Positions 3,771-7,035 of a stretch of 20,007 bases of DNA are shown here, piece after piece; the stretch's first letter is position 1; every line of letters begins with the position of its first letter. Position numbers and translations under genes: made by a program. The notes below the pieces were generated by a model. It searched no databases. It was not told the origin of the DNA and saw nothing but the letters and a program-made list of their open reading frames with translations. This DNA is from a virus: the IMG/VR virus record IMGVR_UViG_3300020187_000284, positions 1 to 20,007 of that record. One strand, 5' to 3'.

Positions 3771-4679
3771 ATGACTATTAGCATAACTAAGCCCACCGTC
3801 GGCGGCTCAGAGAACACATGGGGTACGACCGTCAACACGGCGTTAGATACGATTGTTGACGGCATAAACGGCACGTCCGGCACAATCGCGCCTGATCTAA
3901 GCACACTGACCATCAACGGCACAGATGTTACGGCGACAGCGGCAGAATTGAACATCTTGGATGGTGTAACGGCGACCACGGCAGAGTTGAATATTTTAGA
4001 TGGTGTAACGGCGACAGCGGCAGAATTAAACATTTTGGACGGTGTAACGGCGACAGGGGCAGAGTTAAACGTCTTGGACGGTGTTACGGCGACCACGGCA
4101 GAGTTAAACGTCTTGGACGGTGACACCGCAGCCACCGCTACAACACTTGCAGACGCAGATCGTGCAGTTGTCAATGACAATGGCACAATGGTTCAAGTCG
4201 CGATGACTGACTTTACCACATACTTTAATTCCAACATTGAACCTTCAGGTATAACGATTACCGACAGTGAGTTGGCAGGTGCCACTATTGAAAAGTTTAC
4301 AAACGACACAAGCGCCGCAACAGGTGTCGTTAACTTTGATTGTAAAACACAAGCGGTATACTTAAACTCAGCCAACGCCTCGGGAAATGTACAATTAAAT
4401 TTCAGGGGTGACGGCTCTACTACTTTTGCTGATATTGTTCCTGTAGGTAAATCGCTGACAGCGGTATATGCCGTTAATAATGGTAGTACCCCGTATTATG
4501 TTTCCGATGTCAAAATAGACGGCACTTCGCAATTAAGCAGTTCCTCGTTTTTCTGGCAAGGTGGAACGCAGCCCTCTTCTGGAAATGCAAGTGGTATGGA
4601 TGTCTATACGTTCACCTTCTTTAGGAGGGGTGCTAGTGCATGGACTATTTTTGCAGATAGAACCTTCTACGGTACATAG
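3771..4679 (+). CDS. Tail fibre protein with 13-aa AELNILDG repeats
   Basis: The product is 302 aa. GAGG lies 8 bases before the ATG. The first 50 residues (ITKPTVGGSENTWGTTVN..) resemble the N-terminus of many phage fibre proteins, where this part is thought to attach to the virion. Residues 53-117 are five copies of VTATxAELN(I/V)LDG, a repeat I know from marine phage fibres. Residues about 118-190 hold an A/D-rich connector and short beta segments. Residues about 190-302 form a non-repeat C-terminal domain ending in an aromatic stretch (AWTIFADRTFYGT), the likely distal receptor-binding or adhesive part. Probably a trimeric fibre; the partner is unknown. Confidence 0.8.
   Translation: MTISITKPTVGGSENTWGTTVNTALDTIVDGINGTSGTIAPDLSTLTINGTDVTATAAELNILDGVTATTAELNILDGVTATAAELNILDGVTATGAELNVLDGVTATTAELNVLDGDTAATATTLADADRAVVNDNGTMVQVAMTDFTTYFNSNIEPSGITITDSELAGATIEKFTNDTSAATGVVNFDCKTQAVYLNSANASGNVQLNFRGDGSTTFADIVPVGKSLTAVYAVNNGSTPYYVSDVKIDGTSQLSSSSFFWQGGTQPSSGNASGMDVYTFTFFRRGASAWTIFADRTFYGT
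3927..4121 (+). repeat. 39-bp tandem repeat, five units
   Basis: Five in-frame 39-bp units encode VTAT(A/T/G)AELN(I/V)LDG. The units are far more alike at DNA level than those of the 69-bp array upstream: most differences are single synonymous changes (gaacatcttgga versus gaatattttaga). They could gain or lose copies by recombination and so change fibre length. Confidence 0.9.
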
Positions 4680-4688
4680 GATTAAGCG

Positions 4689-5504
4689 ATGCCTTTACTA
4701 AGCACACTTGGCGCAGCATCTTCTCAAAGTTTTAAGGGTCGTGGTGGGCCGGGCCGGACAATGACGGCTTCCACGATTGATGCTGACATGAGTTTCGGCT
4801 CGTTTTCAGTGGCATCCGATGCAGATATTGTGTCCGGCGACATGTTAATTGTTGCGCAAGGTTCTGGGGACAGTGATGTAACCACTTTTCCTAATCCTGT
4901 GTCAGATGGTTATTATTCGCCCTCTGGAACGGGTTTCACGCGATTGTCTGCCACGTTTTCAAATTATGCTTCATCCGGGGACAATCCAAAAATATGTGCG
5001 TCATGTGGCAGTTGCCAATATTCGGCCGATGGAAGTGAGCCGGGTACAACAATAAGCGGTTTCTTACCTACAGGCCAAGACGGTTACGAGCGATCAGATG
5101 GAAGTTTGATAAGGCTCCGGCCCGATTTCGATATCGCCGTTAGAAGTTTCAAAGACAGTACAAATTTTATTGGCAATACAGGCACTGGTACTATTACGTC
5201 AAGTGCCATATCTTTAGGCATTGTTCCGTCAACGCGGTGTACTCTTTTGGTTACGGTATTTATGAACCACAATAGTAGCAATACCAACGGAATTGTTTTT
5301 AGTAAAAACATAGACGGTTTCCGGGTGTTTCAAGCTACTACAGGCTATTCGGGATCTGGTTTTAAGGTTTCGGGCCTTCGTTATATTTCAATGCATGTTT
5401 TTCCTAACGGAACAAATGTTGGAGACATAACCATATCACACACCAATACTGCATCTGGTTCAAGAATGCTTAATGCAGTAGCTTATGAGATAGGTACGTC
5501 ATAA
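4689..5504 (+). CDS. Putative tail/fibre-associated protein
   Basis: The product is 271 aa, with AGGA about 7 bases before the ATG. The N-terminus MPLLSTLGAASSQSFKGRGG has the LGAAS..F-type start common in phage fibre-tip or Gly-rich tail proteins. The rest alternates Ser/Thr/Gly-rich beta segments and has a small Cys cluster (CASCGSC, residues about 103-109). No transmembrane segment or enzyme motif is visible. It sits between a repeat fibre and the gp10-like tail protein, in an operon of structural genes, so I read it as a virion surface protein. It could also be a chaperone or a fibre tip; the sequence does not decide. Confidence 0.7.
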   Translation: MPLLSTLGAASSQSFKGRGGPGRTMTASTIDADMSFGSFSVASDADIVSGDMLIVAQGSGDSDVTTFPNPVSDGYYSPSGTGFTRLSATFSNYASSGDNPKICASCGSCQYSADGSEPGTTISGFLPTGQDGYERSDGSLIRLRPDFDIAVRSFKDSTNFIGNTGTGTITSSAISLGIVPSTRCTLLVTVFMNHNSSNTNGIVFSKNIDGFRVFQATTGYSGSGFKVSGLRYISMHVFPNGTNVGDITISHTNTASGSRMLNAVAYEIGTS

Positions 5505-5548
5505 TGCCCCTTCAGAAACTTCAATTCAAACCCGGAATTAACAAATGA
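5504..5548 (+). pseudogene. 14-codon leader or relic of a gp10-like tail gene
   Basis: A tiny ORF starts on the last base of the previous stop (TAATG) and reads MPLQKLQFKPGINK, then TGA. It ends inside the start codon of the next gene (AAATGA). The peptide looks like the N-terminus of phage tail proteins of the family encoded next; I recall many that begin M-L-x-x-L-x-x-P-G-I-N. It aligns without gaps to the first 14 residues of the downstream protein (MTLVPLDIPAGFYR), sharing M1, L3, L6 and G11. It is either the remnant of a replaced allele or a coupling leader peptide. That it is translated is inferred from the overlaps only. Confidence 0.55.
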
Positions 5549-7035
5549 CATTAGTTCCCCTTGATATACCCGCAGGCTTTTACCGCAACGGCACTGACTT
5601 AGAGCAATCTGGCCGCTGGCGCGACGGAAGTTTGGTCAGGTGGAGAGATAATAGCTTGCGCCCCATTGGAGGCTGGCAAGAACGAAAAGCGTCGTTCAGC
5701 ACAAATCCCGTGCGAGGCATGCACAGTTGGGAGACAAATTCCAGTGATGCCTATCTTGCTGGCGGCTCTTATAGCGAATTAAAGGCAATGATCGGCAGCG
5801 GAACTATTTATGATATTACGCCCACCGATTTGACTGCTGGTCGTGAAAGTGCAGAGGTTGGCACAGGGTATGGGGATGGATTTTATGGAAACGGCTATTA
5901 CGGTCAGCCAATCCAGCAGAGTACAAATTCTGTACCACTAGAGGCGACGACGTGGAGTTTAGACAACTTTGGCGAATATCTTGTAGCCTGCTCAAAAGAT
6001 GATAAGCGTTTGTTGGAATGGCAGCTTGGGTCTGGTGCTAAAGCCGCGCCCATTGCAAATGCTCCAATAAATAATCTTGGATTGGTTGTAACAGAAGAGC
6101 GTTTTATTTTTGCTCTTGGTAGCGGCGGCAATCCTCGCAAAATTTCATGGTGTGATCGAGAAAACAACACGCTGTGGACGCCAGCGGCAACAAACGAGGC
6201 TGGCGACATTGAGCTTTCTGACAGCGGGCAAATTATGCAGGGCATTAGAACGCGAGGTCAGACGCTTATTCTGACTGATACGTCAGCGCATACCGCGCGT
6301 TATACTGGACCGCCTTATGTGTACGGGTTTGAGCGCGTTGGAACCTCTTGCGGGGCCATATCTCGAAAGGCTGCGGCCGACGTTGATATGGGCGTGTTCT
6401 GGATGGGCCAGCGCGGTTTCTTTAGATTTGACGGTAACAGCGTTCAAGAAATACCGTGCGACGTATTTGACTATGTGTTTAGCGACTTTAACACGGCGCA
6501 ACAGTCAAAGGTTTGGTCGTTTGCCAATGGTCAATACGGCGAGGTTTGGTGGTTTTATTGCTCAGAAGGCTCAACAGAAATAGACCGATATGTCGCTTAT
6601 GATTACAAAGAAGGTCACTGGTTGATCGGCAACTTATCACGCACCAGCGGCGTGCAGCGCGGTGTTTTTCGGTATCCTCTTATGGCTGGCCACAATGCAG
6701 ATAGCGATATATATGACCATGAGGTTGGGTTAAATGTTGATAGCTCATCAATCTTTGCAGAAACCGGGCCTATATCTATAGGCTCAGGGGATCAAGTGGC
6801 GCGGATTACCAACCTTATTCCAGATGAAAAAGCGCAGGGCGAAGTAAATTTAACATTCAAAACAAGGTTCTACCCCAACGGCACTGAAACAAGCCACGGG
6901 CCGTTCGCAACGTCCAACCCTACATCAGTTAGGTTTACTGGCCGTCAGATTAGAATGCGCGTCGAAGGCGCAGCCTTGTCAGACTTTAGGGTTGGCAATA
7001 TGCGGGTTGATATTAAGGCTGGGGGGCGTAGATAA
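5545..7035 (+). CDS. P22 gp10-like tail accessory/DNA-stabilisation protein
   Basis: The product is 496 aa, close to P22 gp10 (about 470 aa). The start MTLVPLDIPAGFYRNGTDLE is followed by WRDGSLVRWRDNSLRPIGGW, a pattern I associate with the phage stabilisation (gp10-like) family. The middle has repeated W and G turns and blades such as VFWMGQRGFFRFDGN and WWFYCSEGSTEIDR, which fits a beta-propeller-like nozzle fold. The C-terminal 60 residues end in strands (RQIRMRVEGAALSDFRVGN), as in gp10. In P22 this protein closes the portal channel below the head. Only weak Shine-Dalgarno sequence (GGA) precedes the start, which overlaps the stop of the 14-codon ORF. The next gene overlaps by TAATG. The family call is from memory of patterns, not a search. 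Confidence 0.7.
   Translation: MTLVPLDIPAGFYRNGTDLEQSGRWRDGSLVRWRDNSLRPIGGWQERKASFSTNPVRGMHSWETNSSDAYLAGGSYSELKAMIGSGTIYDITPTDLTAGRESAEVGTGYGDGFYGNGYYGQPIQQSTNSVPLEATTWSLDNFGEYLVACSKDDKRLLEWQLGSGAKAAPIANAPINNLGLVVTEERFIFALGSGGNPRKISWCDRENNTLWTPAATNEAGDIELSDSGQIMQGIRTRGQTLILTDTSAHTARYTGPPYVYGFERVGTSCGAISRKAAADVDMGVFWMGQRGFFRFDGNSVQEIPCDVFDYVFSDFNTAQQSKVWSFANGQYGEVWWFYCSEGSTEIDRYVAYDYKEGHWLIGNLSRTSGVQRGVFRYPLMAGHNADSDIYDHEVGLNVDSSSIFAETGPISIGSGDQVARITNLIPDEKAQGEVNLTFKTRFYPNGTETSHGPFATSNPTSVRFTGRQIRMRVEGAALSDFRVGNMRVDIKAGGRR

Follow-up and report, generated by a model that had tools for sequence, protein, structure and literature searches.

Phage mosaicism, with its novel joints near gene boundaries, is the closest described setting for the locus considered here: an unrelated cassette is joined to a backbone, and a small piece of a lost gene stays behind. 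The locus differs in that this piece is itself an open reading frame, a mini-ORF homologous to the gene that it precedes and overlapping both of its neighbours. The scar is an elegant, well-documented case of this known process.

The other point of comparison is translation. Synthetic bicistronic designs are one of the systems in which a short ORF delivers ribosomes. The mini-ORF described below resembles such systems in being short, in having an SD-like site of its own, in the TAATG and ATGA overlaps at its two ends, and in the placement of the second gene's weak SD inside the first ORF; it differs in its origin, which is a fossil gene start and not a mobile repeat or a design, and in that coupling here is putative. 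Ribosome delivery by short ORFs is known to be possible, and the ribosome-delivering short upstream ORFs include MIRU elements located at start codons with a spacing of −4 (PMC12548453). The commonest coupling spacings are −4 and −1; coupling is best from −4 to +3, with a 3–10 fold loss by about +40 nt (PMC12548453).

The mini-ORF and the nozzle-gene family

The window analysed is a stretch of marine phage DNA of 20,007 nucleotides (IMG/VR record IMGVR_UViG_3300020187_000284). On its plus strand, a 14-codon ORF (5504–5548), hereafter termed the leader, translates to MPLQKLQFKPGINK* and lies between a 271-aa gene (4689–5504) and a 496-aa gene (5545–7035), both on the same strand. The ATG of the leader overlaps the TAA of the 271-aa gene as TAATG (spacing −1). 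Its TGA, codon 15, is fixed by the opening bases of the 496-aa gene, with which it forms an ATGA stop/start overlap (5545–5548, plus strand; spacing −4). Both overlaps reported in the earlier note are confirmed, and both spacings lie within the range of efficient coupling.

Over its full length, the 496-aa protein matches the virion structural protein family PHROG 3287 (E 1e-85; profile 8–524 of 524). Several of its relatives are named "phage stabilization protein" in phage-collection records, and its profile gives distant, partial-length matches to the solved nozzle chains 8zkm and 8zkk and to 9nwi_Y. For these reasons, we refer to the gene as gp10/nozzle-like, or simply as the nozzle gene. 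It is of the MTLVPL type and complete from its own ATG, with no truncation at codon 14.

Aligned without gaps, the leader and the N-terminus of the nozzle protein, MTLVPLDIPAGFYR, have four identities only (M1, L3, L6, and G11). The gap-free alignment claimed in the earlier note is, however, backed by a profile–profile comparison of the leader-parent and resident families, which extends from residue 1 to the end (probability 100%, E 4.8e-71), pairs residue 1 of both families, and has no gaps across the leader region. When IMG/VR was scanned with the degenerate pattern MP[L/F]QKLQFKPGIN, 47 stretches were returned; two of these are L001/L082, a contig nearly identical to the window, and a second contig, L009 (= L111). 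In the other 45 contigs this peptide opens a long nozzle gene, of 621–871 aa where complete, and INKE-type alleles, e.g., those of L084 and L123, are identical to the leader at 14 of 14 residues. For this reason, a chance resemblance between the leader and a nozzle start is excluded. The usual continuation of the long alleles is R/K/D-E-x-T-x-Y-S...GGW..DKIRFR.G.PEKIGGW; the gp10-like proteins with this start and an acidic/GGW region, which had been anticipated, do therefore exist. All four MPLQKLQFKPGIN-start proteins that were tested match PHROG 3287 (E 1e-62 to 1e-74), and nozzle starts of the same kind are found in the named phages HTVC023P (MPLTNVQIRPGLNK), CRP-901 (MPLQLLKYDPGIVK), and HTVC027P (MLQKLNFKPGFNK). 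These comparisons bear out the proposal that the peptide is the N-terminus of other family members, and it is well supported that the leader is a relic gene start from a different allele of the downstream nozzle gene. PHROG 3287 includes both the downstream gene and the parent alleles of the leader, of which the leader represents the first 14 codons only.

The closest full-length allele in the IMG/VR scan differs from the leader at 6 of 42 bases, which indicates that the actual donor is absent from this collection, and searches of viral contigs and the phage collection revealed no donor sharing the end of the upstream gene, so that the direction of transfer is putative.

The joint, its second copy, and the upstream cassette

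In both known copies of the scar, in the window and in L009, the donor sequence ends at codon 14 (nt 41 or 42). Recombination exactly at codon 14, as proposed earlier, thus holds for the donor side; the resident gene is uncut. Because donor nt 41/42 is followed by the resident gene's own start codon, the joint is out of register: codon 1 of the resident nozzle gene comes directly after donor codon 14, which duplicates the N-terminal segment.

L009 is the only independent contig with the scar among 80 relatives and in two pattern scans. Scans for other relics of the leader type, with MP or MA starts, gave only the two known copies, and the leader pattern was not found in GTDB genomes. The leader peptide is identical in the window and L009, and the DNA differs at four positions, all of them third-base and all synonymous (p about 0.001–0.004, assuming random substitutions after the joint, and for two haplotypes only). 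This pattern could also stem from the full-length alleles, via recombination inside the leader. In L009 the stop is lost (TGG vs. TGA), and the resident second codon is GCA, compared with ACA in the window; the frame continues two codons further, to INKWH*, so that the leader ORF overlaps the nozzle gene by 10 nt. At its other end, the upstream stop lies at +33 to the leader. Because this spacing is weaker, the tight coupling arrangement is not conserved.

The first bases of the nozzle gene, ATTAGTTCCCCTTGAT, are common to the window and L009 and absent from other close relatives. In the nozzle-gene tree, L009 clusters with the leaderless L007 and L010, which implies that recombination within the conserved gene start has parted the scar from the gene body that it first preceded. 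These sequences are most simply read as the outcome of one old joint and of later crossovers within the nozzle gene's conserved start.

Upstream of the leader, the DNA of the window and L009 is 94% identical up to 3953 and, starting again at 5471, 93% identical; the cassettes that separate these two parts are unrelated. The first boundary falls in a 302-aa tail-fibre-like gene (3771–4679, plus strand; PHROG 5906), the start of which (to about 3953) is conserved backbone while the remainder is variable among relatives. The 271-aa gene belongs to the variable cassette; its only relative found is in the near-identical contig 3300020169_000196, and no other contig was found to share its end (..AYEIGTS). 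The cassette of L009 contains a 305-aa propeller-like gene, after the stop of which come about 33 nt and then the leader. These nucleotides (..NPAAYGIGTT), which lie outside the translated frame of the 305-aa gene, resemble the 3′ end of the 271-aa gene (5471–5503, plus strand; ..NAVAYEIGTS), of which they are a diverged copy located after a different gene's stop.

Among the 80 relatives, the start of the fibre gene is matched in 70 and the gene after the nozzle gene (7035) in 75, and the gene directly upstream of the nozzle gene is highly diverse. Since both flanks are backbone common to the relatives, the upstream fibre cassette with its 41 nt is a likelier import than a new nozzle allele. 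This suggests that a variable tail-fibre cassette was imported along with 41 nt of the gene that used to follow it, and that the nozzle gene was not replaced; the earlier claim of a replaced tail-gene allele loses ground here.

Two repeat regions were observed in the window. Positions 3926–4138 hold 78-base tandem repeats that code for AELNILDGVTAT-type units in the fibre-like gene, and the conserved/variable boundary with L009 lies inside this array. A large gene at 83–2257 contains YadA-head adhesin repeats (PF05658, 10 stretches), more diverged copies of which are present in the neighbouring region of L082.

Spacing and initiation signals

In nearly all relatives, the upstream stop is located −4 to +13 nt from the nozzle start, so that the two genes overlap by up to 4 nt or are separated by up to 13 nt. 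This does not hold for the window (40 nt, with the leader discounted), L009 (74 nt), L059 (38 nt), the truncated L022 (22 nt), and L040/L041. The leader of the window restores adjacency at both of its ends. It is plausible, judging by these sequence features, that the leader couples translation into the nozzle gene.

The leader ATG is preceded at 7 nt by an SD-like TAGGTA (5491–5496, plus strand; duplex energy −3.8 kcal/mol), the AGGT of which is also present in L009. Inside the leader, a weak SD-like CGGAA (5533–5537, plus strand; −3.5 kcal/mol) lies 7 nt before the nozzle ATG. These sites and the stop/start overlaps agree with the view that the old start was retained. The median SD energy is −6.2 kcal/mol for full-length MPLQ genes and −3.0 kcal/mol for leaderless relatives; both window starts are weak. 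As the SDs of leaderless relatives are equally weak, the leader is dispensable in general.

The start-region accessibility of the nozzle ATG is average, and the RNA fold of the joint region is ordinary (z −0.27). An RNA-structure switch was considered and rejected, because the region does not stand out: the local fold is at least as stable in 22 of 77 relatives. A hairpin GGAATTAA/TTAGTTCC (window 5534–5558) spans the joint and holds the nozzle ATG in its loop; L009 has the identical hairpin.

Origin of the scar and other scars at this boundary

As a whole, the best explanation, to which we assign a probability of about 0.78, is a recombination scar together with a possible translated bridge. 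An ancestor would have gained the upstream tail-fibre cassette through an out-of-register, probably illegitimate, joint. The cassette would still have borne 41 nt from the start of the gene that used to adjoin it, a MPLQKLQFKPGIN-type nozzle gene, and the joint would have been placed directly before the start codon of the MTLVPL-type resident gene, leaving the latter intact. The fragment would have retained its start codon and a weak SD and, by chance, would end in ATGA over the resident start. Translation of this short leader could then bridge, by termination–reinitiation, the distance between the upstream stop (TAATG) and the nozzle start. It should be noted that we infer the direction of transfer, the translation of the leader, and the coupling alike. 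The scar would thus be a base-exact record of a tail-fibre gene swap beside a conserved structural gene. If coupling is true, translation offers a way to neutralise, or to exploit, a recombination scar, and mini-ORFs at module boundaries would be predicted to be often fossils of a neighbouring gene.

The same homologous origin is compatible with an inert scar, the nozzle gene initiating on its own weak SD. The overlaps would then be accidental, TAATG being derived from the donor and ATGA arising by frame about one time in three. The SD-like site of the resident ATG, which is as strong as the relatives' median, and its average accessibility favour the absence of a role, as does L009, where the nozzle gene is intact although neither tight overlap links real genes. 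The unchanged peptide with its exclusively synonymous differences argues the other way, and the position of the nozzle start beside an upstream stop in nearly all relatives suggests that coupling matters; we consider an inert scar to have slightly less than an even chance. A true allele replacement, in which a genome that formerly had an MPLQ-type gene received the present nozzle gene in its place and kept the old start, would produce an identical end result, and related phages whose 101-aa gene is homologous (79% identity) do carry MPFQKL-type nozzle genes (L103, L107). Yet the resident nozzle gene and the gene following it accompany the same upstream backbone in most of the 80 relatives, and the lack of truncation at codon 14 also makes a replacement unlikely.

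A leader peptide with a function of its own, or an extension of the nozzle N-terminus by frameshifting, would account for the conservation of the peptide between two contigs but is hardly credible given the ordinary RNA fold. A fusion would, moreover, duplicate the N-terminus, and frameshifting is rejected from the sequence: a TAA (5539–5541) stands in the nozzle frame just before the ATG, and a canonical slippery site is absent.

Beyond the scar that we interpret as a cassette import with a possible translated bridge, scars of several kinds occur at the nozzle-gene boundary, as the following two cases indicate. In L040/L041 (about 3937–3996), a 19-codon ORF, MSILVQKVRNAINWPNKPE*, precedes the nozzle gene. 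Its two ends look like those of the upstream gene (roughly 140 aa) of L015/L059, the start being like MHILITQVRNA of L059 and the end like INWPNKPA of L015, and it is apparently an in-frame internal deletion of that gene. One might speculate that fossil gene starts left by swaps are selected as bicistronic leaders, which would make the upstream gene exchangeable without loss of coupling, with L040/L041 as a second independent case; we regard this generalisation as doubtful. In L059 (about 3963–4000), a 38-nt remnant (..GAIYGST*) between the upstream stop and the nozzle ATG resembles the C-terminus of the Gly-rich fibre genes in L063/L064.
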